From assembly GCA_944389545.1 (NCBI GenBank), contig CALXMT010000004.1, positions 72,201 through 119,954 on the forward strand: a DNA stretch of 47,754 nt, given 5' to 3'. Each line of letters begins with the position of its first letter. Position 1 is the first letter of the stretch. Made by a program: the position numbers and the translations under genes. This DNA is from an uncultured Kiritimatiellota bacterium. Lineage in GTDB: Bacteria > Verrucomicrobiota > Kiritimatiellia > RFP12 > DVOR01. This document shows, piece by piece, positions 8,141-46,015 of this stretch. The notes beneath the pieces are model-generated. The model saw only the letters and a list, made by a program, of their open reading frames with translations, did no database searches and was not told where the DNA came from.

Positions 8141-8275
8141 ACCCTATAGGGTCGGCGATGAGACCCTATAGGGGTCCGAGGTCGACCCTTATAGTGGTCC
8201 ATGGTGAGACCCTATAGTGGTCGGTGGTCGACCCCTATAGTGGTCTGGGCGAGACCCTATAGTGGTCCGAGGGGC
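8141..8275. repeat. Six-unit ACCCTATAG.GGTC tandem array
   Basis: Six units of 22-24 bases start at 8141, 8163, 8185, 8209, 8231 and 8254. Each has an ACCC-TATA-GGGT or ACCC-TATAG-TGGTC palindromic core followed by 8-10 bases that alternate between a GAG-ending and a TCG-ending type, so the higher-order period is about 45 bases. A related five-unit array lies at 29464-29570. Its position is downstream of a minus-strand terminator and between operons. Function unknown; a protein-binding array is possible. Confidence 0.85.
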
Positions 8276-28356: not shown

Positions 28357-29463
28357 ATGGCAGTGTGGAGGCTTGGAAGTTTGGAAGCTTAGAGGCTTGG
28401 AGGAGCCACAGAGGTTGAGGCCCGGGCCGCCGCCTTTGGCGGCGATGAGACCGAACGCTGCGCGGTTATCACAAAGGACACAAAGAACCACAAAGGTACA
28501 CGAAGAGTACGACGCAGGGGAACCGCAGATTGCGGAAGAACACAGAGTGGCACAGAGGATACAGAGGGTCACAGAGACGGGCGGCGTGCTAGCGCACGCA
28601 GGACTGCCAGAATGTTTTTATCACAAAGGACACGAAGGACACAAAGAGCACGTCGCAGGGGCGGGCCGTGCGTGTGCGCAAGGCACACGTCCGGCCCGGA
28701 GGCCTGTAGGGGCGTGGCGGGCTTCGCACGCCATGCTTTGGTTTTTTGGAAGTCCTCCGGTGGAGCCCCGCAGGATTAATCTTCCACGAGAGACCATCCG
28801 TCACTTTGTCGCCCCGCAGGGGCGTTCTGTTCTCCGTTCTCTGTTCTCCGTTCTCCGGGGCGCGTCAGTGCCCCTTGTCCTACCGCGACGTGTTATGGCA
28901 CGTCGTAGACGTGCCGGGGGTGCAGGGGCAGTTGGAAGTTTGGAAGCTTGGATGCTTGGAAGTTTGGTTTCTCTGCACAACGATTGTTTTGTCGCGCGCT
29001 TGCCGCGCGCTCTGTTTTCTGTTTTCTGTGGCCGTGGAAGGTTTGGCCCTTTGGGCCTGCACGCTCTGTTCTCTGGGGCGCGCTAGCGCCCCTTCCCCTG
29101 CCGGGGCGTGGGGCAGCGCCCCACACCCTTCCAATCAGCTAATCAGCCAATCAGCTAATCAGCCAAATTCTTCGTGTCCCTTCGTGGTTCTTCGTGTCCT
29201 TCGTGTCAGCCCCGCAGGGTTAACCTTCCACATTCTCCCAACACTCCGCCCGTCGCGCGCTTGTCGCGCGTTCTGTTCTCTGTGGCCGTGGAAGGTTTGT
29301 CCCTTCGGGCCTGCACGCTCCGTTCTCTGTTCTCTTGGGTGGCGGTAGCCACCCCTCCCGTTCTCCGGGGCGCGCCGGCGCCCCTTCCCCTTACCTTATT
29401 ATATAGTACCTTCTGGAGGCCCCAAAAGGGCCTTTGGAGAGGCGCTTAAGGGGTCTTTTTGAG
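28357..29463. repeat. Composite palindromic repeat spacer, 1.1 kb
   Basis: There is no gene. The left part reads in plus orientation (purine tract, GGCGGCGATGAGACCG, CACAAAGG stretches, GAACACAGAGTGGCACAGAGG at 28538-28580, GTGCTAGCGCAC, GGCCCGGAGGCC, GGCGTGGCGGGC hairpin). From about 28800 the modules are inverted: TCGCCCCGCAGGGGCG, GTTCTCC 7-mers, GGCACGTC/GACGTGCC, purine tract, GCGCGCTTGCCGCGCGC, core hairpin, GGGGCGCGCTAGCGCCCC, GTGGGGCAGCGCCCCAC, CCAATCAGCT repeats. 28883-29139 has a near-identical inverted copy at 41520-41775, and 29185-29376 a near-identical direct copy at 32241-32432. The end (29396-29463) is AT-richer and unrecognised. Confidence 0.85.
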
Positions 29464-29570
29464 ACCCTATAAGGGTCCGAGGTCAACCACTATAGTGGTC
29501 GAGGGTGAGACCCTATAAGGGTCGGGGTCGAAACCCTTAAGGGTCCGAGGCGAGACCCTATAGGGTCTCA
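29464..29570. repeat. Five-unit ACCCTATAAGGGTC tandem array
   Basis: Units start at 29464, 29486, 29510, 29533 and 29555, 22-24 bases apart, with palindromic cores ACCCTATAAGGGT, ACCACTATAGTGGT, ACCCTTAAGGGT and ACCCTATAGGGT. In one unit both arms changed together (ACCAC/GTGGT), which preserves the palindrome. It is related to the array at 8141-8275. The 200 bases that follow (to 29770) hold no recognised feature. Confidence 0.85.
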
Positions 29571-34828: not shown

Positions 34829-34857
34829 AGTCTAGCAAAAACCGGGTGGGAAGGTTG
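34829..34857 (-). promoter_or_regulatory. Extended -10 promoter of bioG operon
   Basis: Minus strand -10 TAGACT (34829-34834) preceded by TGC; no good -35 (CAACCT at 17 bases). The ATG is six bases downstream. No BirA-type operator is apparent. Confidence 0.55.
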
Positions 34858-35574
34858 GAAGCTTGGAAGCTTGGAGGCTTGGAGGAGCGCCCCTCTTCTC
34901 CACGAAGACACAAAGTAACGCGGGGGACTGGGCACTTCACCGTTCGGCCCTGTGGGCCTCTCTACCGTGCCCATCCCCCGCGTTTCTATCGCGTTCTTGG
35001 GAAGTTCAGGCTTCGCGGTAGGACCAATAGGACCTATAGGACCTATAGGACGGCGGCTGACGCCACTAGATTTTCCAAAACCAAAGCGTGGCGTACGAAG
35101 CCCGCCATGCCTCTACAGGCCATTCGGGCCGGACGTGCGCTTTACGCGCACGCACGGCCCGCCCCTGCGTCGTGCTTTGTGTCCTTCGTGTCCTTTGTGA
35201 TAGCCAAAACATTCTGGCAGTCCTGCGTGCGCTAGCACGCCGCCCGTCTCTGTGATCCTCTGTATCCTCTGTGCCACTCTGTGTTCTTCCGCAATCTGCG
35301 GTTCCCCCTGCGACGTGCTCTTTGTGTCCCTTAGCCGTGGAAGGTTTGGCGCTTCGCGCCTGCACGGTGGTTCTTCGTGTCCTTTGTGGGAGCCCCGCAG
35401 GGCAAACACTCCACAGTTGTCCATCCCTCACTTCGTCGCGCGCTTGTCGCGCGTTCTGTTCTCTGTTCTCCGTTCTCTGTTCTCTTGGGTGGCGGTAGCC
35501 ACCCCTCCCGTTCTCTGGGGCGCGCTAGCGTCCCTTGTGTTTTCGTGGGAAACACCCCCCGGACGCATTGCCGT
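34858..35574. repeat. Composite palindromic repeat spacer
   Basis: There is no gene. It has the purine tract (34850-34885), the 68-bp structured module (34917-34984), AGGACCTAT 9-mers (35022-35052), a GGCGGCTGACGCC hairpin, GGCGTGGCG hairpin, GGCCATTCGGGCC, GTGCGCTTTACGCGCAC, ACTGGCAG-like CTGGCAGTCC, GTGCGCTAGCACGC, CTCTGTGNNN repeats, the core hairpin with GGCGCTTCGCGCC, GCGCGCTTGTCGCGCG, GTTCTCT 7-mers, GGGTGGCGGTAGCCACCC and GGGGCGCGCTAGCGTCCC. Confidence 0.85.
34917..34984. repeat. 68-bp covarying hairpin module, copy 1
   Basis: Outer stem AACGCGGGGG / CCCCCGCGTT, middle stem GGGCAC / GTGCCC, inner hairpin GGCCC-TGT-GGGCC. Compared with the copies at 40824-40891 and 45913-45980, stem positions change on both sides and pairing is kept. 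Confidence 0.82.
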
Positions 35575-35604
35575 TTGACAGCGCGGCCTCAAATGGGGTA
35601 TTCT
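35575..35604 (+). promoter_or_regulatory. Strong promoter of structured RNA and restriction-modification genes
   Basis: -35 TTGACA (35575-35580, consensus), 18 bases, -10 TATTCT (35599-35604). Expected start near A35611. It is the only promoter of the window with a perfect -35. Confidence 0.75.
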
Positions 35605-35610
35605 GCTGGC

Positions 35611-35815
35611 ACATAGCTCATCCGGCGGGAAACCGTTGGGTGAGTGCCAACGATGCGTTCAACGCATACATTCGTCTATCGGAAACTAGCACCTTCCATG
35701 TAGAAGCGAATGTACGCGGGAGCGCGTCGGGGTCATTACACCCCGGCGTGCCCCCGTCTGTACGGTTTTCTACAGGGCAGTGCTAGGCCTCCGATGGAAC
35801 CGTCAGACGGAGGCA
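35611..35815 (+). ncRNA. Structured RNA or leader with pseudoknot, unknown class
   Basis: Six helices can be drawn by hand. H1: 35616-35628 with 35633-35645, 13 bp, GAAA loop. H2: 35653-35658 with 35662-35667. H3: ACATTCG 35668-35674 with CGAATGT 35707-35713, extended by TCTA/TAGA and GGAA/TTCC, leaving a nine-base loop. H4: 35723-35733 with 35740-35750, extended by 35714-35720 with 35751-35757. H5: 35758-35762 with 35771-35775. H6: GCCTCCG 35787-35793 with CGGAGGC 35808-35814. The H3 loop CTAGCAC (35686-35692) is complementary to GTGCTAG (35780-35786), a 7-bp pseudoknot directly before H6. H6 hides the GGAGG that is the only ribosome-binding site before the next ATG, and is followed by CCTTTCTT, so it could block translation or end transcription. 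I do not recognise the class; motifs of 6S, tmRNA, RNase P, SRP or cobalamin, SAM or TPP riboswitches are absent. Confidence 0.68.
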
Positions 35816-35825
35816 CGCCTTTCTT

Positions 35826-36749
35826 ATGCCCTTGTTGGGGGAAGTCGATATCCTCGAGGATGACCTGGTGAGGGTCGTCCCCGGCGTGCTCGACCTACTC
35901 TTGAAGGACCGGACGACGGGGCGCAACATCCTCTGGGGCACGGAAGACTACGCCGCGCTGGGCCACCACGCACAGGACGAAATCCGCCTGGAGGCCATCA
36001 CCGGCGCGAATGGCCGCGTCATCCGCCCCCGCACCGCCAAGGCCGCACATGTCCAGCGCCGTCGCTCCGTCGAGCGTGCCGAGGTCTTCACCCCCGCCTG
36101 GGTCGTCAACGCGCAGAACGACCTCATCGACGCCGCTTGGTTCGGCGCCCCCACGCCCTTCGTACTCCCCAAAGGCCGGCACTGCGACTGGGAGCCCACC
36201 CAGCGCGCCATCCCCTTCCCCGAGGGCCGCACCTGGCGCGACTACGTCCGCCTGCCCCGCCTGGAAATCACCTGCGGCGAAGCGCCCTATCTCACCACCC
36301 GCTACGACGCCACCACCGGTCTCCCCATCCCCGTCCCCGCCCGCGTCGGCATCCTCGACCGCAAACTCCGCGTCGTCTCCGAGAACACCCTCCGCGACAA
36401 GGATTGGATGAGGTGGGCGAAACACGCCCTCCGCGCCACCTACGGTTACGACTGGCAGGGCGACAACCTCCTCTTGGCCCGCGAGAACCTCCTGGCCACC
36501 CTCATCGAGGCCCGCCGCGAACGCTTCCCCAAGGCCGCCGAACTCCCCCAGCACGATTACCGCGAGCTGGCCGACATCATCTCTTGGAACCTCTGGCAGA
36601 TGGATGGCCTCCACTTCGTTCCGCCCGGCAGCGACCCCAATCCCGACCTCCTCGACAACCGCGAACCCGCCTACTGCCGCATCCTTGATTGGTCCATCCC
36701 CCGCCGCCCCAAACCCGTCTTCGTCCACACCCTCTTCAGGAAAGGATGA
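35826..36749 (+). CDS. Methyltransferase-like subunit of restriction-modification locus
   Basis: The 307-residue protein resembles proteins annotated as restriction endonuclease subunit M. Visible are LLLKDRTTGRNILWGTEDY near residue 25-43, AEVFTPAWVVNAQNDLID (the FTP motif that precedes motif I in N6-adenine methyltransferases), RLEITCGEAPYLTTRYD (motif I position), and YGYDWQGDNLLLARENLLATL. The catalytic NPPY motif is absent here; it is found in the next protein. So this may be a SAM-binding or specificity partner rather than a complete enzyme. The ATG is 12 bases after GGAGG, which lies in the 3' hairpin of the upstream RNA. GC content is as high as in host genes, unlike the next gene, which starts four bases after this stop. 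Confidence 0.8.
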   Translation: MPLLGEVDILEDDLVRVVPGVLDLLLKDRTTGRNILWGTEDYAALGHHAQDEIRLEAITGANGRVIRPRTAKAAHVQRRRSVERAEVFTPAWVVNAQNDLIDAAWFGAPTPFVLPKGRHCDWEPTQRAIPFPEGRTWRDYVRLPRLEITCGEAPYLTTRYDATTGLPIPVPARVGILDRKLRVVSENTLRDKDWMRWAKHALRATYGYDWQGDNLLLARENLLATLIEARRERFPKAAELPQHDYRELADIISWNLWQMDGLHFVPPGSDPNPDLLDNREPAYCRILDWSIPRRPKPVFVHTLFRKG

Positions 36750-36753
36750 ACCC

Positions 36754-39700
36754 ATGTCTGTGTCTGTCATCGAGAATCCCTACGCCTACAAGCTCATCTA
36801 CGTCTTTCGTTCACCGGAGGAGAAACTTAGGGGGCTTCTGAAGATAGGTGACGCGACGTTGCCCTGCACGCTTCCTCGCGAGGAGGCGATTAAAGCCTAT
36901 CCGCCCAACTGCAAAGCCTTGAACGATGCCGCGAACGCACGTATCAGTGGATATATGGGAACCGCCGGAATGGCGTGGCAACTGTTGCACACGGAGTTGG
37001 CCTTTTACGACAACATCAAAGGGGGAAAAGAGGGTTCGTTCCGAGATCTTAAAGTCCACAATATCCTGCGTTGCTCCGGCCATCCCAAGGTCATTTTGGA
37101 AGGCACTAAAGCCCGAGAGTGGTTTCGTATTCCCCTGCCGGTGGCGATTTCTGCCATTCGGACGGCAAAGGCTCGTCGTACCGTTCTTTCCGCCAAAGAG
37201 AGCAACCCGACCTTCATCCCCGTCACGCTTTGGCCCAACCAACGACAAGCGGTCGACTTGGCCAAGGCTCGCTTCGACGCCGGCGCCCCGGCGGTGTTGT
37301 GGAATGCGAAGATGCGTTTTGGCAAGACCATCTCCGCAATGACGCTCATCAAGGAGCAAAAGTACAGTAAGGTCTTGATTTGCACGCATCGCCCCGTGGT
37401 ACGTAAGGGATGGAGGACGGAATACCAAAACGTTTTTGGGGATTCTGATGCCTATGTCTTCTTGGAGGACGAAGCGGCGCTTGAGCGGGAACACCGGAAC
37501 GTCATTTATTTCGCCTCCATCCAAGATCTGCGCGGCTCATCCATCGTAAAAGGAAAGTTCTCCAAAAACGAGACCGTCTTCAATATGGACTGGGATTTGG
37601 TCATCATCGATGAGGCCCATGAAGGCACGCAGACTGAACTGGGTACCGCTGTCATCGATGCGTTGACGCATAAAAAGAAGGCCAAGGTTTTGGCGTTGTC
37701 GGGAACGCCGTACAACATCTTGGGAGACTTCCCGGTTGAAAACACCTACACGTGGGATTACGTGGCCGAGCGGAAAACCAAACAAGCGTGGGACAAAACG
37801 GAGGGGTGCGCAAACCCTTATGCCTCGCTTCCTGAAATGCATCTCCTCACCTATGCCCTTGGCGAAGAGTTTGAGGGTAACGAGGCCTTGGTGACCCTTG
37901 AGAACAGTTTCAGCTTCGGCGAATTTTTCCGTGTGAGAAAAGAGGATGGGCGGTTTGTCCATGAAGGAGATGTAAAGAAGTTTCTCGCGTTGCTGCGAGG
38001 TGCCGACCCAAAAAGCAACTACCCCTTCGCCACCGAGGAATATCGCAAGGCGCTCAAACATACGCTCTGGAAATTGCCGGGTGTGTCGGAATGTGACGCG
38101 TTAGAAGAACTGTTGAAAGACGACCCACTTTTCGGTAATTTCAAGGTCGTCAACGTGGCCGGCGAAGGGGAAGAAGGCAAAAATGCGGATTCGTCGCTGG
38201 AGGCCGTGAACGCGGCCATCGCCACGCATGAATACACCATCACCCTCTCTTGCGGGCGTCTGACCACCGGTGTGACCGTTCCGCAATGGACGGGTGTGCT
38301 CATGCTCTCGGGTGGGGATAAGATTGCGGCCGCCGCCTACCTGCAAACCATCTTCCGCGTGCAGTCTCCCTACACGGACGAGGCGGGACGCGTCAAAGAA
38401 TCGTGCTATGCATTTGACTTCGCGCCTGACCGTCTTCTTACCATTCTGCCCAAAATGTGTATCGGGAAAACGATTGTCACGGGTGGAGATAAGGGGACGG
38501 ATGAACCTTCACGGGCGGAAATTTCACAGGTGCTCAATTTCCTCTCCATCATCGCCGTCAAAGGAAGCGAACTGCATGGATTTCGCGTGGACGATGTTTT
38601 CTACGCTATCAAACGTTCGATAGCGGCCAAGGCCATCCGAGAAGGTTTCGCCGATGACAGTATCTATCGTAAGGAGATGTTGACGAACGCCAACATCAAT
38701 CCCGAAGACTTCGCGGAACTCAAGGGTATTATCGGTACACTCAACCGAAACGAAGTCCCAGGTGCCGTTCCCCTTTCCCAGACGGGCCTCAACAAACAAA
38801 AGCGCACCAAAACCACCACGCGGACTCCACGCATTCCCGATCCCGAACGCGAGAAGCGCGAAAAAGAGCGCCAGGAAAGAGAGAAGAACATCTCCATTCT
38901 ACGCGGCATCAGCATTCGTATCCCGTTGCTGATTTATGGCGCGGAAGGCCCCCATGACGAAGACGTCGGTATCCGCGACTTCATGCGGCGCGTTGACCCC
39001 ACCTCTTGGGAAGAATTCATGCCCAAGGGCGTGAACTGGGAGATATTTGAGAAGTTTATCCCCTACTACGATGACGAGGTCTTTCGTATCGCCGTCAAGG
39101 AAATCCGAGCCCGGGCCAAGGCCGCAGATTCCTACTCCCCGGAAGGGCGCGTCAAAGCCATCGCCACGATTTTCTCAGCTTTCCGCAATCCGGACAAGGA
39201 GACGGTTCTCACCCCATGGCGAACCGTCAACCGTCACCTCACCGAAACGGTCGGCGGCTGGTGCTTCTATGATGAGGACTACAAAGAACCTCTGGATACC
39301 CCACGCTATGTGGCGCATAAAGGCATCACCGAGCGACTGTTCAAGAACCCCAAGGCCAAAATCCTGGAAATCAACTCGAAGTCCGGTCTTTATCCGCTTT
39401 GGGTGGCCTTCTCCTTCTATCAAGAACGGTGCGCGGCCCTACAAGCAAAGGGCGAAACCCTGTCGCGCGAACGCCAACAGTCTATTTGGCGAGAGGTTGT
39501 CCGTGAAAACCTCTTCATCGTCTGCAAGACGAGAATGGCCCGAGCCATTACGTTGCGGACGCTCTTAGGTTATGGCTCTGGCGACATCAATCTGGAAGTC
39601 TACGAGAACCTCATCCTAGCTCTTCGCGACAAAGCGGAAAACGATAACAACATCCTCCGCCTCATCCAAAAGCCCTCCACTTGGGGCTTGAAAGGAGTCT

Positions 39701-40776
39701 CTCCCGTGCATTTTGACGCCATCGTCGGCAACCCGCCTTATCAAGCCCAGTTGGGCGGGGCAAGCCCACTGCCGGTCTATCACCACTTCGTTGAACTGGC
39801 CATCGCGGCCGCGGATTTGGTCTCGCTGATTACGCCATCGCGTTGGTTCAACACCGGGAGCGGCTTGGACGGTTTCCGTGAAGAGCGCCTCAAGGACACC
39901 CACTTCCGCGTCCTCCACGACTTCCGGAATTCCAAAATGCTCTTTGACACCGTGGACATCAAAGGCGGCGTCAACTATTTCCTCTGGGATAGGGATTGGG
40001 ATGGGAAAACCGAGCTTTTCCTCCACGAGAGCGCGACGGAAGTTCGACACTCCTGCCGTTATCTGTTGGAGCCCGGTCTGGACATCTTTGTCCGAGACGA
40101 ACAAGCGTTACCTATCCTGCGAAAAGTCTTGGCAAAGGGCGAGGAACCGTTCAGTTCAATTCTCAGCTCAAGAGATCCTTTTGGCTATGACATCCGTCTG
40201 CCCGGCAGTATGAAAGTGGCAGAACACCAATATGTGCTCAAACGTGATGAAAAGAACTGTATCGCCTTTTATTACAACAAGTGGCGTGAAGAAGGTATAG
40301 GATATGTATCTCGTCAGAGTGTCAATGACCACGCTGAATGGATAGATTCCATCAAGCTTTTTCTGCCGAAGGCGTGGGGAACCGGAGACCCTCGCAATAG
40401 TAGAATCCCCGCATTCATCGTTGAACCTCCGAGCGTCTGCACGGAGACTTACATCACGCTGACCCCGTTCAAGACGCGCGAGGAGGCAGAGCACGCGCTT
40501 GGTTATGTTGAGACCAAGTTCTTCCACTTCCTCGTCGGTATCCGCAAGACCTCCCAGAACGGGGCCAAAGGTGTCTACGGCTACGTTCCCCTGCAGGATT
40601 TTTCGCGGGAGTGGACGGACAAGGCGCTGTATGAGAAGTATGGGCTGACGGCGGAGGAGGTGGCGTTCATCGAGGCGACCATCCCGGACGCGGCGGCCAA
40701 ACAACCGAAGAAGACCGCGAAGGCAGACGCAAAGCCGCGTGGCAAGGGTCGGCGCAAGGCTGACAGTCTAGAATAG
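36754..40776 (+). CDS. GIY-YIG nuclease-helicase-adenine methyltransferase fusion (single-chain restriction-modification enzyme)
   Basis: The 1340-residue protein appears to join four parts. Residues 10-110 look like a GIY-YIG nuclease of the T5orf172/MUG113 kind (KLIYVFRS, GLLKIGDAT, ANARISGYM). Residues 165-560 are a superfamily 2 helicase (Walker A AKMRFGKT near 185, IIDEAHEGTQTE near 285, motif VI AYLQTIFRVQSPY). A methyltransferase part follows with ILEINSKSGLYPL (about 870, motif I position) and AIVGNPPYQ (about 993, catalytic NPPY of N6-adenine enzymes). Residues 1080-1300 should be target recognition. Eco57I-type and LlaGI-type single-chain enzymes are the nearest known layouts, but those use a PD-(D/E)XK nuclease. 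The start has AGGAAAGGA upstream. GC content is clearly lower than in neighbours, which suggests transfer. Confidence 0.8.
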   Translation: MSVSVIENPYAYKLIYVFRSPEEKLRGLLKIGDATLPCTLPREEAIKAYPPNCKALNDAANARISGYMGTAGMAWQLLHTELAFYDNIKGGKEGSFRDLKVHNILRCSGHPKVILEGTKAREWFRIPLPVAISAIRTAKARRTVLSAKESNPTFIPVTLWPNQRQAVDLAKARFDAGAPAVLWNAKMRFGKTISAMTLIKEQKYSKVLICTHRPVVRKGWRTEYQNVFGDSDAYVFLEDEAALEREHRNVIYFASIQDLRGSSIVKGKFSKNETVFNMDWDLVIIDEAHEGTQTELGTAVIDALTHKKKAKVLALSGTPYNILGDFPVENTYTWDYVAERKTKQAWDKTEGCANPYASLPEMHLLTYALGEEFEGNEALVTLENSFSFGEFFRVRKEDGRFVHEGDVKKFLALLRGADPKSNYPFATEEYRKALKHTLWKLPGVSECDALEELLKDDPLFGNFKVVNVAGEGEEGKNADSSLEAVNAAIATHEYTITLSCGRLTTGVTVPQWTGVLMLSGGDKIAAAAYLQTIFRVQSPYTDEAGRVKESCYAFDFAPDRLLTILPKMCIGKTIVTGGDKGTDEPSRAEISQVLNFLSIIAVKGSELHGFRVDDVFYAIKRSIAAKAIREGFADDSIYRKEMLTNANINPEDFAELKGIIGTLNRNEVPGAVPLSQTGLNKQKRTKTTTRTPRIPDPEREKREKERQEREKNISILRGISIRIPLLIYGAEGPHDEDVGIRDFMRRVDPTSWEEFMPKGVNWEIFEKFIPYYDDEVFRIAVKEIRARAKAADSYSPEGRVKAIATIFSAFRNPDKETVLTPWRTVNRHLTETVGGWCFYDEDYKEPLDTPRYVAHKGITERLFKNPKAKILEINSKSGLYPLWVAFSFYQERCAALQAKGETLSRERQQSIWREVVRENLFIVCKTRMARAITLRTLLGYGSGDINLEVYENLILALRDKAENDNNILRLIQKPSTWGLKGVSPVHFDAIVGNPPYQAQLGGASPLPVYHHFVELAIAAADLVSLITPSRWFNTGSGLDGFREERLKDTHFRVLHDFRNSKMLFDTVDIKGGVNYFLWDRDWDGKTELFLHESATEVRHSCRYLLEPGLDIFVRDEQALPILRKVLAKGEEPFSSILSSRDPFGYDIRLPGSMKVAEHQYVLKRDEKNCIAFYYNKWREEGIGYVSRQSVNDHAEWIDSIKLFLPKAWGTGDPRNSRIPAFIVEPPSVCTETYITLTPFKTREEAEHALGYVETKFFHFLVGIRKTSQNGAKGVYGYVPLQDFSREWTDKALYEKYGLTAEEVAFIEATIPDAAAKQPKKTAKADAKPRGKGRRKADSLE

Positions 40777-41354: not shown

Positions 41355-42309
41355 GTTTTCCTGCAGCTCCTTTTCGGTTCTCCACGAAGACACGGGCGCT
41401 CTCCCGGAGCGCCTAGCTGATTGGCTGATTAGCTGATTGGAAAACGCCGCGATAGAACTGCCAGAGTATTTGGAAATCACAAAGGACACAAAGGACACAA
41501 AGGGGATTTTAGCTGATTGGCTGATTGGAGGGTGTGGGGCGCTGCCCCACGCCCCGGCAGGGGAAGGGGCGCTAGCGCGCCCCAGAGAACAGAGCGTGCA
41601 GGCCCAAAGGGCCAAACCTTCCACGGCCACAGAAAACAGAAAACAGAGCGCGCGGCAAGCGCGCGACAAAACAATCGTTGTGCAGAGAAACCAAACTTCC
41701 AAGCATCCAAGCTTCCAAACTTCCAACTGCCCCTGCACTCCCGGCACGTCTGCGACGTGCCATAACACGACGCGGTAGGACATATAGGACCTATAGGACA
41801 TATAGGACGGCGGCTTCGCCGCTCAGCAGAAAGGTTTGTTTGTCGCCCCGCAGGGGCGCTCCTGTATCTCCTGTATCTCCTGAATCTCCTGAATCTCCTG
41901 ACCTGGTCCGTGTGCGCCTCCGGCGCACCAACTCCCCAAAGCGTGGCGTGCGAAGCCCGCCACGCCCCTACAGGCCCTTCGGGCCGGACGTGCGCCTTTA
42001 GTGGAAGTTTGGAAGTTTAGAGGTTTGGAGGCTTGGCCTTTGCGGTTGCCGCCGCTTTGTGCAACGGCTTCGCCTGTCGCCCCGTAGGGGCGCTCTGTTC
42101 TCCGTTCTCCGTGGCCGTGGAAGGTTTGGCGCGTTGCGCCTGCACGCTCTGTTCTCCGGGGCGCGTCAGCGCCCCTTGGTTCTTCGTGTCCTTTGTGATA
42201 GCCGCGCAGCGTCCGGTCTCATCGCCGCCAAGGGCGGCGGCCCGGGCTTCAACCTCCGGGGCTCCTCCAAGCATCCAAGCTTCCAAACATCCAAGCTCCA
42301 AATGCCCCT
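41355..42309. repeat. Composite palindromic repeat spacer, 0.95 kb
   Basis: There is no gene. Modules: GGGCGCTCTCCCGGAGCGCC, GCTGATTGG repeats (41414-41438 and 41512-41530), CACAAAGGACACAAAGG, GTGGGGCGCTGCCCCAC, GGGGCGCTAGCGCGCCCC, core hairpin GGCCCAAAGGGCC, GCGCGCGGCAAGCGCGC, purine tract, GGCACGTC/GACGTGCC, AGGACATAT 9-mers (41778-41808), GGCGGCTTCGCCGC, TCGCCCCGCAGGGGCG, CTCCTGTAT repeats, GGCGTGGCG hairpin, then an inverted stretch with TCGCCCCGTAGGGGCG, core hairpin GGCGCGTTGCGCC (42115-42147) and GGGGCGCGTCAGCGCCCC. 41520-41775 is a near-identical inverted copy of 28883-29139. Confidence 0.85.
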
Positions 42310-42377: not shown

Positions 42378-43505
42378 ATGGCAGAACTTGGCAAGGCCAC
42401 GCAGGCGGAGTTGAAGGCGATTTCCGCCGCGTTCCAGGTTTACGGCGACTTTGTGAGCGGGTGCCCCTATGGCAGCGGGCACATCAATGACACCTATCAG
42501 CTCTCCTATTCGGTGGGCGGCGCGAAGATGCACTATTTGCTTCAGCGCATCAACCATCACGTCTTTACCCAGCCGCAGGCCGTGCAGCAGAACATTCTGC
42601 GCGTGACCCGCCACATTGCCGAGAAGCTGCGCGCCCAGGGCGAGGCGGACATCTCCCGTCGCACCTTGACGCTCATCCTCACCAAGGATGGCGAGCCGGT
42701 CTATCACGACGCCAATGGCAACTGGTGGCGTATGTACGTCTTTGTCGAGGGCGCTTCCACCTACGACCAGATCCAGAGCACGCAGCAGGCGGAACTGGTG
42801 GGCGAGGCCTTCGCCGGCTTCCAGAACATGGTGGCGGACCTCACCGACCCCCGCCTCCATGAGACGATCCCCAACTTCCACAACACCGTGAAGCGCTACG
42901 AGGCGCTCCAGACCGCCATCCAGAAGGACGCCTTCAACCGCGCCAAGGACGTCAAGCCCGAGATCGACTTCGTCGTGGCGCGCGCCGACTCCTTCGGCCG
43001 TCTGCTGGAGCGTTGCGAGAAGGGCGAGATCCCCGAGCGCGTGACGCACAACGACACCAAGCTCAACAACGTGATGCTGGACGACAAGACCGGTCGCGGC
43101 ATCTGCGTGATCGACCTGGACACGGTGATGCCGGGCTTGGCGCTCTATGACTTCGGCGATATGTGCCGCACCTCCACGGCCAACGCGGCCGAGGATGAGC
43201 AGGACCTCTCCAAGGTCTATTCGCGCATGGATATGTTCGAGGCCCTTGCGCGCGGTTACTGCCGCGGCGCCAAGTTCCTCACGCCCGGCGAAAAGGAGGA
43301 GCTCGCCTTCTCCGCCCGCCTCATCACCATGACCATCGGCATCCGCTTCCTGACGGACTACCTCTCCGGCGACACCTACTTCCACATCAAGCGCCCCGGC
43401 CACAACGTTGACCGTTGCCGCACCCAGCTGAAGATGGTGCAGAGCATGGAAGAGCAGTCCGAGCAGATGGAGGCCATCATCAAGAAGGCCCTCGCCGAGG
43501 CCTAA
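42378..43505 (+). CDS. N-acetylhexosamine 1-kinase-like (NahK family), paralogue 1
   Basis: The 375-residue protein has the aminoglycoside-phosphotransferase fold with the NahK-type pattern: YGSGHINDTYQ near residue 31, LLQRINHHVF, WWRMYVFVEG, the catalytic loop THNDTKLNNVM (Asp as base, Asn for Mg) and the DFG-equivalent CVIDLDTVMPGLALYDFGD. NahK phosphorylates GlcNAc or GalNAc at C1 in the galacto-N-biose/lacto-N-biose pathway of bifidobacteria. Here the neighbour nagB supports use of amino sugars such as mucin glycans, but the exact substrate is not proven. It is cytoplasmic with no signal peptide. Full family length (about 360). Confidence 0.82.
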   Translation: MAELGKATQAELKAISAAFQVYGDFVSGCPYGSGHINDTYQLSYSVGGAKMHYLLQRINHHVFTQPQAVQQNILRVTRHIAEKLRAQGEADISRRTLTLILTKDGEPVYHDANGNWWRMYVFVEGASTYDQIQSTQQAELVGEAFAGFQNMVADLTDPRLHETIPNFHNTVKRYEALQTAIQKDAFNRAKDVKPEIDFVVARADSFGRLLERCEKGEIPERVTHNDTKLNNVMLDDKTGRGICVIDLDTVMPGLALYDFGDMCRTSTANAAEDEQDLSKVYSRMDMFEALARGYCRGAKFLTPGEKEELAFSARLITMTIGIRFLTDYLSGDTYFHIKRPGHNVDRCRTQLKMVQSMEEQSEQMEAIIKKALAEA

Positions 43506-43572: not shown

Positions 43573-44676
43573 ATGGAGAAGAAGATCGAGGAGATCCTGG
43601 CCAGCTTTGCCGTCAAGGGCACGCCGGTCGAGGCCAAGCCTTACGGCAGCGGCCACATCAACGACACCTATCGCGTCACCACGGAGGAGCCCGATGGCAC
43701 GCGCCACCTCTACACCCTGCAGCGCATCAACCACGCCGTCTTCCGCAAGCCGCAGCAGGTGATGGACAACATCGAGCGCACGCTCGCCCACCTCGGCTCG
43801 AAGGCCGCGCAGTATCCCGACGTCAAGGTCCTCTCCCTGGTCCACACCCGCGAGCAGCGTAACTGCATGCGCACCTTCTCCGGCAAGTGGTGGCGGCTCT
43901 ACGACTTCATCGACGGGGTGGAGAGCTACGACAACGTGCGCGACCCGGACATCGCCTTTGAGGCCGCGCGCGGTTTCGCGCAGTTCCAGAACATGATGGC
44001 CGACCTGCCCGCCCCGCGGCTCTACGAGACCATCCCCTACTTCCACCACACCCCGATGCGCTACGCGACGCTCGAGGAGGCCGCCTATCAGGACATCCGC
44101 AACCGCGCCGATGAGGTCGCCGAGGAACTCGAGTTCGTGCGCCAGCGCCGCCACCTGGTGGCCCACCTGCTCAACCGCTACCTGCGCGGGCAGATCCCCG
44201 AGCGCATCACCCACAACGACACCAAGATCAACAACGCCCTCTTCGACCCCACCACCAAGCGGTGCGTCGCCGTCGTTGACCTGGACACCGTGATGCCCGG
44301 CCTCGCGCTCTACGACTTCGGCGACCTCTGCCGCACCACCTGCAGCACCGCCGACGAATCCGAGCCCGACCCCGACAACGTCCACTTCGACATCTCCATG
44401 TTCGAGGCCGTCACCGCCGGGTATCTCGACACCGCCCGCTTCCTCGTCCCCGCGGAAATCCAGGAGCTCGCCTTCTCCGCGTGGCTCCTCCCCTTCATGG
44501 TCGGCATCCGCTTCCTCACGGACTACCTCCAGGGCGACACCTACTTCAAGACCCACTACCCCAAACAGAACGTCGACCGCTGCCACACGCAGTTCCGTCT
44601 CGTTCAATGCATGGAAGACGCCCGCGAAGAGATGCAGGCCGTCGTCCAGCGTTGCGCCCGCGCCGTCGGGCGTTGA
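43573..44676 (+). CDS. N-acetylhexosamine 1-kinase-like (NahK family), paralogue 2
   Basis: The 367-residue paralogue of the gene just upstream shares the motifs YGSGHINDTYR, LQRINHAVF, WWRLYDFIDGVESYD, THNDTKINNALFD and VVDLDTVMPGLALYDFGDLCRT, and the C-terminal FLTDYLQGDTYFKTHYPKQN. All catalytic residues are kept, so both copies are probably active, perhaps on GlcNAc and GalNAc respectively; that division is inference. GGGAGA precedes the ATG. The gene follows a strong intergenic hairpin and is 30 bases before nagB. Confidence 0.82.
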   Translation: MEKKIEEILASFAVKGTPVEAKPYGSGHINDTYRVTTEEPDGTRHLYTLQRINHAVFRKPQQVMDNIERTLAHLGSKAAQYPDVKVLSLVHTREQRNCMRTFSGKWWRLYDFIDGVESYDNVRDPDIAFEAARGFAQFQNMMADLPAPRLYETIPYFHHTPMRYATLEEAAYQDIRNRADEVAEELEFVRQRRHLVAHLLNRYLRGQIPERITHNDTKINNALFDPTTKRCVAVVDLDTVMPGLALYDFGDLCRTTCSTADESEPDPDNVHFDISMFEAVTAGYLDTARFLVPAEIQELAFSAWLLPFMVGIRFLTDYLQGDTYFKTHYPKQNVDRCHTQFRLVQCMEDAREEMQAVVQRCARAVGR

Positions 44677-44706: not shown

Positions 44707-45492
44707 ATGAAAGTCGCAATCGTTCAGAACCCCGAAGAAGGCAGCCGCCTGGCCGCCAGCATCTTCATCGACCAGGTGAAGCAGAACCCCAAGACCGTCC
44801 TCGGCCTCGCCACCGGCTCCACTCCCGTCATGATGTACAAGCTCCTCGCCGAGGCTTGCAAGGCCGGCGTCGTCTCCTTCAAGGACTGCCAGAGCTTCAA
44901 CCTCGATGAGTACCTCGGCTTGGCCCCCGAGCACGACCAGAGCTACCACTACTTCATGAAGACCCAGCTCTTCGACCATATCGACATCGACCAGGCCAAG
45001 ACCCACGTGCCCGACGGCCTCGCCAAGGACATCGGCAAGTCCTGCCGCGCCTACGAAGAGGCCATCAAGGCCGCCGGCGGCGTCGACATCCAGCTCCTCG
45101 GCATCGGCTCCGACGGCCACATCGCCTTCAACGAGCCCGGTTGCTCCCTCGCCTGTCGCACCCACAGCCAGGTGCTCACCCAGCAGACCATCCGCGACAA
45201 CGCCCGCCTCTTCTTCCACGACAAGATCGACGAAGTGCCCACCCAGGCCGTCACCATGGGCATCGGCACCATCATGGATGCCCGCAAGGTCGTCCTCCTC
45301 GCCTTCGGCAAGGGCAAGCAAGACGCCATCCTCGGCCTCGTCGAGGGCCCCGTCACCGCCATGTGCCCCTGCTCCGCCCTGCAGTACCACAACGACTGCA
45401 TCGTCATCTGCGACGAAGAGGCCGCCGGCAAGCTCCGCAACAAGGATTACTACAAGTACATCTTCTCCCAGACCGGCACCTCCAACGTCTGA
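44707..45492 (+). CDS. nagB: Glucosamine-6-phosphate deaminase
   Basis: The 261-residue protein matches NagB: LGLATGSTPVMMY (phosphate loop), SFNLDEYLGL with the catalytic Asp, LLGIGSDGHIAFNEPG holding the Asp-His-Glu set, TMGIGTIMDARKVVLLAFG, and GPVTAMCPCSALQYH. It converts glucosamine-6-phosphate to fructose-6-phosphate and ammonia. NagA, which would feed it from GlcNAc-6-phosphate, is not in the window, and the kinases upstream make 1-phosphates, so the two branches of amino-sugar use seem to be co-regulated rather than sequential. AAAGGA precedes the ATG. Confidence 0.94.
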   Translation: MKVAIVQNPEEGSRLAASIFIDQVKQNPKTVLGLATGSTPVMMYKLLAEACKAGVVSFKDCQSFNLDEYLGLAPEHDQSYHYFMKTQLFDHIDIDQAKTHVPDGLAKDIGKSCRAYEEAIKAAGGVDIQLLGIGSDGHIAFNEPGCSLACRTHSQVLTQQTIRDNARLFFHDKIDEVPTQAVTMGIGTIMDARKVVLLAFGKGKQDAILGLVEGPVTAMCPCSALQYHNDCIVICDEEAAGKLRNKDYYKYIFSQTGTSNV

Positions 45493-45538: not shown

Positions 45539-46015
45539 GTTGTCGTTTTACCACGAAGACACGGGCGCTCTATCGGAGCGCCCGGCTGATTGGCTGATTG
45601 GAAAGCAAAGCGTGACCGTTCGGCGCGTTGCGCCTCTCTCCCTATCCCCATCCCTTGCGTTTCTGTGACATTCTTGGAAATCGCAAAAGCCGCAGCGTAG
45701 GGAACGCAGATTGCGCAGATTGATGCAGATTTGGGGCGTGCTGGCGCACGCCGGGAGGACGCACAATTGGAAGCTTGGAAGTTTGGAGGCTTGGAGGCTT
45801 GGTTTGATTGGGAGGGGCTGCGCCCCACACCTCTTCCTCCACTCGGTCGCGCGCTTGCCGCACGCTACTGAACCATCCTGTGGGGTCTTGAGTGCTTTCA
45901 AGAAACGACAGAAGCGCAAGGGATGGGCACGGTAGAGAGGCCCACAGGGCCGAACGGTGAAGTGCCCAGGCCCTTGCGCTCCTTTGCGTTTTCGTGGAAA
46001 ACAAGGCAGCGCCCC
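45539..46015. repeat. Repeat spacer between nagB and TPR gene
   Basis: There is no gene. It has a GGGCGCTCTATCGGAGCGCCC hairpin (about 45566-45583), GCTGATTGG, the right half of the 68-bp module (45615-45665), GGAACGCAGATTGCGCAG stretches, GGCGTGCTGGCGCACGCC (45735-45752), the purine tract (45768-45805), GGGGCTGCGCCCC, GCGCGCTTGCCGCACGC and a complete inverted 68-bp module (45913-45980). Confidence 0.8.
45913..45980 (-). repeat. 68-bp covarying hairpin module, copy 3
   Basis: On the minus strand: outer stem AGCGCAAGGG / CCCTTGCGCT, middle stem GGGCAC / GTGCCC, inner hairpin GGCCC-TGT-GGGCC. The second outer pair is G-C here and A-T in the other copies. Confidence 0.82.

Follow-up and report, generated by a model that had tools for sequence, protein, structure and literature searches.

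A candidate riboswitch-like leader RNA with a kissing-loop core and alternating pairings precedes restriction-modification and surface-protein genes in Verrucomicrobiota and some Bacteroidota

Upstream of two restriction-modification genes, the window (the whole stretch of 47,754 nucleotides from an uncultured Kiritimatiellota bacterium that was analysed) carries a promoter followed by some 215 nucleotides that have the appearance of a structured RNA. This locus raises the question of whether these nucleotides belong to a known class of RNA and whether they control the genes that follow. The minimum free energy of positions 35608–35826 (219 nt) is −118 kcal/mol, as compared with −74.2 ± 4.7 in shuffled sequences (z −9.27, 0/200). 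The first-pass annotation had described a consensus promoter, a GAAA-capped 13-bp hairpin and a 7-bp pseudoknot, all of which are in place (Table 1); the promoter scan found one candidate at the 10/12 level against 0.1 in shuffles, and the two strands of the pseudoknot remain complementary in nearly all relatives. It was also right that GGAGG is the only strong Shine–Dalgarno sequence before the ATG at 35826, with TTTCTT after it. The promoter spacing of the window copy is also visible in relatives, and transcription would start near 35611; when simple patterns were used, no more than a minority of leaders (33/103 and 19/52) showed a clear consensus. A competitor of the first helix, CGTTGG with CCAACG, can be drawn on paper but is broken in relatives of 93–96% identity (L005, L006).

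Table 1. Features of the window leader RNA and of the two genes that follow it
Feature	Position	Strand	Evidence
Promoter: TTGACA 35575–35580, 18-nt spacer, TATTCT 35599–35604	35575–35604	+	consensus scan, 10/12
Leader RNA as a whole	35611–35825	+	R3 144.9 bits, E 1.4e-26; shuffle z −9.27
P1, variable 5′ hairpin, 13 bp, GAAA loop in window copy	35616–35645	+	MFE
W, 5′ strand of P2, pairs with X; alternative local hairpin ATGCGT-TCA-ACGCAT 35653–35667	35652–35660	+	P2 pairs 87.4%
P3: TACATTCGT 35667–35675 with GCGAATGTA 35706–35714, encloses hairpin A	35667–35714	+	MFE; pair counts 75–81%
PKc: ATCGG 35678–35682 with CCGAT 35791–35795	35678–35795	+	98.8% paired, double changes in 5/5 pairs
Hairpin A: GGAA 35681–35684 / TTCC 35694–35697; loop CTAGCAC 35686–35692 kisses hairpin B	35681–35697	+	
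PKb, 7-bp kissing helix: CTAGCAC 35686–35692 with GTGCTAG 35780–35786	35686–35786	+	98.7% paired, double changes in 7/7 pairs
PKa: TGTAGAA 35699–35705 with TTCTACA 35768–35774	35699–35774	+	91.6% paired, double changes in 7/7 pairs
X: GGGAGCGCGTC, pairs with W (P2) or Y (antiterminator)	35718–35728	+	held-out permutations
P5: CGGGG 35728–35732 with CCCCG 35741–35745	35728–35745	+	98.2% paired
Y, 5′ arm of P6; GGCGTGCCCCC 35745–35755 pairs with X or X′	35745–35767	+	both alternatives supported
Hairpin B: GGC 35776–35778 / GCC 35787–35789; loop carries 3′ strand of PKb	35776–35789	+	86–99% paired
X′, 3′ arm of P6 (terminator arm), with Shine–Dalgarno GGAGG 35809–35813	35798–35819	+	outer P6 helix 97.9% paired
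U-run TTTCTT after P6	35820–35825	+	T-richness across copies
First gene: 307-residue type II methyltransferase-like protein, directly after the RNA	35826–36749	+	PADLOC MTase_II E 2.4e-87, residues 7–269
Second gene: 1340-residue restriction helicase/methylase (ResIII + Eco57I)	36754–40776	+	Pfam; PADLOC type IIG

The proposal that the RNA was an unrecognised one has held, on the grounds of the Rfam searches and of strong covariation among relatives. With Rfam 15, the window copy gave nothing at the gathering threshold and nothing at E values up to 10, while 20 relatives and 18 loci on the Bacteroidota side gave no gathering-level match; such hits as were obtained at E values up to 10 were at chance level. 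Weinberg (2010; PMC2864571) described other motifs from Bacteroidetes and Lentisphaerae, and those having an Rfam entry do not match the leader RNA. No such RNA is described in the literature searched, a body that excludes most subscription journals and preprints.

Plain DNA search recovered a total of 26 places, three of them in the window's genome, from 12 of the genus's 17 genomes; 23 of the places served to build a first covariance model with which the search was repeated. The final model, R3, finds positions 35611–35825 as the sole match of such strength in the window (the part covered by the covariance model being 35651–35825); in the genome to which the window belongs (genus Candidatus Spyradenecus) it detects 20 copies, all with E < 1e-7. 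Across the phylum, a match at E ≤ 1e-4 was obtained in 107 of 388 sampled Verrucomicrobiota genomes, representing 58 of 199 genera. Bacteroidota matches are scattered (20/395 genomes), although the isolate Dysgonomonas sp. 520 holds 13 copies. A DNA pattern of the two kissing hairpins returned 62 stretches in approximately 85,000 genomes, including Dysgonomonas sp. 520 and Lacihabitans sp. CCS-44, and 58 matches were confirmed by the covariance model following this search. In 14 genomes of a third phylum, the sole match lay in the genome already known, so that the false-positive rate appears to be low. The covariance model failed to confirm a pattern match from Gemmatimonadota (L139), and viral spread was rejected, the single pattern-matching viral contig likewise being without such confirmation. 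Most copies of the window's genome (L236, L238, L239, L241–L251) form a second subtype, set apart by its 5′ arm (TTTTGCTATWCTA promoter, CACGCC..GAGA hairpin), which heads type IIG, type I and EcoRI-type methylases as well as GtrA proteins. The copy L008, in the genus relative G006, is degenerate: it is devoid of a T-run, and the methyltransferase gene that follows seems to be truncated.

What is preserved across these copies is the fold. In the 23 genus sequences, 92.6% of the cells of proposed pairs hold standard pairs, as compared with 36–54% in slid controls; in 67 aligned RNAs the values are 89.8% and 38–48%, with 637 double-change cells as against 190 in shuffles (0/500). P2, P3 and P6 were left out of the aligning structure and are thus not favoured by the alignment. 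Double changes occur in six of the eight pairs of P3, and the stem of hairpin B is found as GGC/GCC, GGG/UCC, GGU/ACC, GGG/CCC and GCC/GGC, each variant compensated. P1, on the other hand, differs between copies in both length and sequence. The best-conserved unpaired element is the nearly invariant AAA that precedes the loop of hairpin A. Covariation shows the core to be a conserved kissing-loop pseudoknot (P3, PKa, PKc and the two hairpins), with P6 as the closing helix on its 3′ side. P6 also has the form of an intrinsic terminator: the 8 nt that follow its 3′ arm include at least five T in 150 of 155 copies, as against 11 of 155 at a control position. Steric doubt remains as to whether P3, P6, PKa, PKb and PKc can all form at once. 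Should P3 and P6 be closed at the same time as PKa and PKc, the core would consist of two stems connected by their paired loops and would resemble the CopA–CopT extended kissing complex, in which the loops of two closed stems pair through two helices around a four-way junction. That complex, however, forms between an antisense RNA and its target, whereas the present one is proposed to form within a single leader.

The expression platform proposed by the first-pass annotation, a hairpin of GCCTCCG with CGGAGGC, does exist on paper, but its pairing with X′ does not covary. The evidence came from a comparison of duplex energies within an RNA with those obtained after strands were swapped between RNAs, carried out on the model-building set and on a held-out set of 64 thinned RNAs that were used in no model. 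For the GCCTCCG hairpin, the held-out set gave −8.1 for native and −8.0 for swapped strands (z −0.6). Other pairings do covary. X, the segment between P3 and P5, resembles X′, and Y has a sequence complementary to each of them. In the RNAs from which the models were built, native strands of X:Y and Y:X′ outperformed swapped ones by a wide margin in both phyla, and native against swapped W:X gave 0/3000. On the held-out set the z values were −12.5 for W:X, −14.1 for X:Y and −14.3 for Y:X′ (each 0/5000 permutations), although these are too large because the permutations ignore phylogeny even in thinned sets. The control pairings W:Y (z −0.8), W:X′ (z −1.3) and X:X′ (z +1.2) were null, and these controls, obtained on the same sequences, argue against an artefact. 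The signal persists without the bases of P5 and in both phyla. X:Y and Y:X′ overlap by four or more bases of Y in 63 of 66 RNAs. The Verrucomicrobiota leaders contain a further segment, Z, after X′, for which X′:Z gave z −6.3 and Z:SD (the Shine–Dalgarno sequence) z −5.5, each with 0/3000 permutations and likewise overstated for want of a phylogenetic correction. Covariation shows that the segments of the Verrucomicrobiota leader are linked in a chain, W–X–Y–X′–Z–SD, in which each segment can pair with either of its neighbours.

Such a chain would allow two exclusive states. In the OFF state, W:X and Y:X′ (together with Z:SD) would form, so that transcription ends and/or the ribosome site is hidden; in the ON state, X:Y (together with X′:Z) would block the terminator and leave the ribosome site free. 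When the RNAs are folded as nested structures up to just before X′, X:Y exceeds W:X in 149 of 156 RNAs, and in the corresponding prefix of the window RNA X:Y is essentially complete. Full-length nested folding, in which the pseudoknot lies outside the scored energy, still favours X:Y in 132 of 156. In the window, with the pseudoknot again unscored, the terminator fold (−120.8) and the fold with X:Y forced (−118.4) are nearly equal. The default state is probably ON, since the nested model predicts X:Y before X′ is transcribed; nevertheless, the favoured state, and hence the sign of the switch, is something we infer, because the energy of the pseudoknot falls outside the folding model. A trigger would turn the gene OFF by making W:X, the core and the terminator more stable. 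The output may differ between lineages. In the window copy, X′ would serve as both terminator arm and ribosome site, and control is probably mainly translational, because X′ carries GGAGG and is followed by no more than TTTCTT. Bacteroidota make weak use of Shine–Dalgarno sequences, which would make the terminator the likelier output there. On balance, we consider it probable that the window leader is one copy of a widespread cis-regulatory, riboswitch-like attenuator that is ON by default and OFF when the pseudoknot/terminator fold is stabilised. This is close to the aptamer with expression platform envisaged by the first-pass annotation: the position in front of genes, the covariation and the mutually exclusive terminator and antiterminator pairings speak for it, while the platform helix it had drawn does not stand.

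Which genes would be controlled? In nearly all copies a same-strand open reading frame comes next, usually starting 0–100 nt past the T-run, and in the window there is no gap between the T-run and the start codon. Reading frames were picked by a permissive rule from our own gene calls, the genomes are mostly metagenome-assembled, and about 10 of some 165 loci are followed by a short reading frame only. Among 77 first genes assigned with Pfam, BspA-type leucine-rich repeat (LRR) proteins and restriction helicases are the most frequent (8 each), and HsdM, Mrr and DNA methylases come next; PADLOC confirms many restriction-modification proteins among first genes. Restriction-modification and surface proteins are over-represented among the genes directly downstream. 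Seven of the 20 copies that the window's genome carries lie before restriction-modification genes, and at least six before LRR, PEP-CTERM, acyltransferase, GtrA or FrhB-type proteins; a copy heads four of the six Eco57I-type methylase loci. A switch that delays restriction enzyme synthesis, as had been suggested for the locus, is accordingly too narrow a description, given that the RNA also heads LRR surface proteins, glycan-pathway membrane proteins, lipoproteins and others. In further families of this class (L204, L207, L209, L210, L196, L201 and L226), the RNA repeatedly heads seemingly related large exported proteins of approximately 660 to more than 1150 residues, with an N-terminus like VDPDEYEFLM..VGDIYDLE.

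Apart from the leader, short decayed tandem repeats crowd the intergenic regions and recur across the window (34849–34883, 35019–35051, 35455–35485, 41691–41726, 45767–45802 and others), with units such as TTGGAAGC, TAGGACCTA, CCAATCAG, TCTGTTC and CACAAAGGA. Two arrays, at 8141–8272 and 29460–29567, consist of related, partly palindromic 46-bp units based on ACCCTATAGTGGTC / ACCCTATAAGGGTC. Two adjoining related reading frames with kinase-like motifs (THNDTKLNNV), at 42378–43505 and 43573–44676, are followed by a NagB-like one at 44707–45492; the three possibly belong to an amino-sugar or N-acetylhexosamine pathway.

The attenuator might sense a protein. A trans-acting factor, either NusG-paralogue-like or an RNA-binding regulator, would then bind the kissing-loop core and shift the balance between X:Y and Y:X′. 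The many kinds of long surface-protein and restriction-modification operons headed by the RNA would fit such a sensor, as would the scarcity of universal unpaired bases beyond the AAA of hairpin A, which are fewer than a tight small-molecule pocket would have. However, no constant partner gene was seen beside the copies, and the core is compact, highly covariant and aptamer-like; we therefore regard a protein sensor as unlikely. Quite improbable is a processive antitermination element of the EAR or put kind, in which the 5′ RNA would act on RNA polymerase for read-through of downstream terminators, with the embedded hairpin as part of the element. The RNA does start near the transcription start and does head long genes, but mutual exclusion between X:Y and Y:X′, together with a link to the Shine–Dalgarno sequence, marks a local attenuator and would serve no purpose in processive antitermination.

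The promoter and the terminator-like 3′ end could also belong to a stand-alone small RNA that acts in trans on many targets, an option that the first-pass annotation had left standing. Very little speaks for it once the relatives are considered: a stand-alone RNA would be untied to a downstream gene, whereas nearly every copy lies directly before one, X′ covaries with Z and Z with the Shine–Dalgarno region downstream, and the kissing loops find their partners inside the RNA. It is scarcely credible, finally, that the family is a repeat or mobile element (REP/MITE-like) that folds by chance. Genomes do hold up to 20 copies, and some near-identical ones travel with their gene (L002, L021, L026, L034), but others are strongly diverged with compensatory changes, are oriented towards the gene and occur in two phyla.

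If the leader is a riboswitch-like attenuator, does it belong to a class already described? As in riboswitches generally, a conserved structured domain lies in the 5′ leader of an mRNA, and mutually exclusive pairings include a terminator or ribosome site. A T-box was rejected, since there is no Rfam match and the kissing loops vary freely by compensation, as was the RNA of a type III toxin–antitoxin system (ToxI), positions 35611–35825 being without a tandem array and the downstream genes not being ToxN. A leader peptide in P2 was also discarded: although there is an ATG, copies differ in reading frame, and those from Bacteroidota have no such ATG. The ydaO riboswitch for c-di-AMP does not fit either, for DAC was found in eight of nine carriers but is absent from G508, which has one copy, and Rfam gives no match. 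Riboswitches for c-di-GMP (the GEMM families of Rfam) occur in many copies per genome, in leaders before diverse surface-related genes, and use alternative pairings. The leader RNA shares the multiple copies, the surface-related genes and the alternative pairings, yet it has no Rfam match, and c-di-GMP is unlikely as its ligand since a search of nine carrier genomes turned up no GGDEF gene (control rings in 8/14); a c-di-GMP riboswitch was rejected on this ground. The HMP-PP (thiS) riboswitch (PMC6478431) has an aptamer embedded in the terminator, such that formation of the aptamer completes the terminator. The likeness is that the terminator hairpin would belong to the sensed fold here as well; the leader RNA differs in sequence and architecture, with its ~215 nt, kissing-loop pseudoknot and upstream antiterminator strand, adds a chain that reaches the ribosome site and has targets unrelated to thiamin. 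The leader appears to represent a previously uncatalogued, riboswitch-like class of RNA switch, notable for the unusual length of its coupled chain and for the uncommon range of genes that it heads.

Little is understood of how bacteria time the expression of their defence genes, restriction-modification genes among them, and the known regulators are mostly proteins. RptR (PMC12255303), for instance, is a protein repressor of restriction-modification genes. It resembles the present case in that a common regulator is set over such genes, but here the regulator would be a leader RNA, and surface genes are headed too. As to the trigger, a small molecule or ion common to many gene classes would be our first guess and a bound protein the second; that surface and restriction genes would share one control points to a signal of a general kind and away from a metabolite of any one pathway. 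It is tempting to speculate, although with rather less than even confidence, that the RNA is a sensor class for a global signal, perhaps a metabolite of phage infection, envelope or growth state, and that, in Verrucomicrobiota and some Bacteroidota, it places restriction-modification and surface genes under joint control by way of a chain of five links, in which alternating helices pass a single decision from the kissing-loop core to termination and the ribosome site alike. If true, this would reveal a major uncharted regulon, with seven restriction-modification and at least six envelope-related loci in a single genome and a presence in more than a quarter of the sampled Verrucomicrobiota genomes. 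The leader would be an orphan riboswitch candidate whose mechanism is unusually easy to trace, and in the cultured carrier Dysgonomonas sp. 520 its trigger may be searched for.
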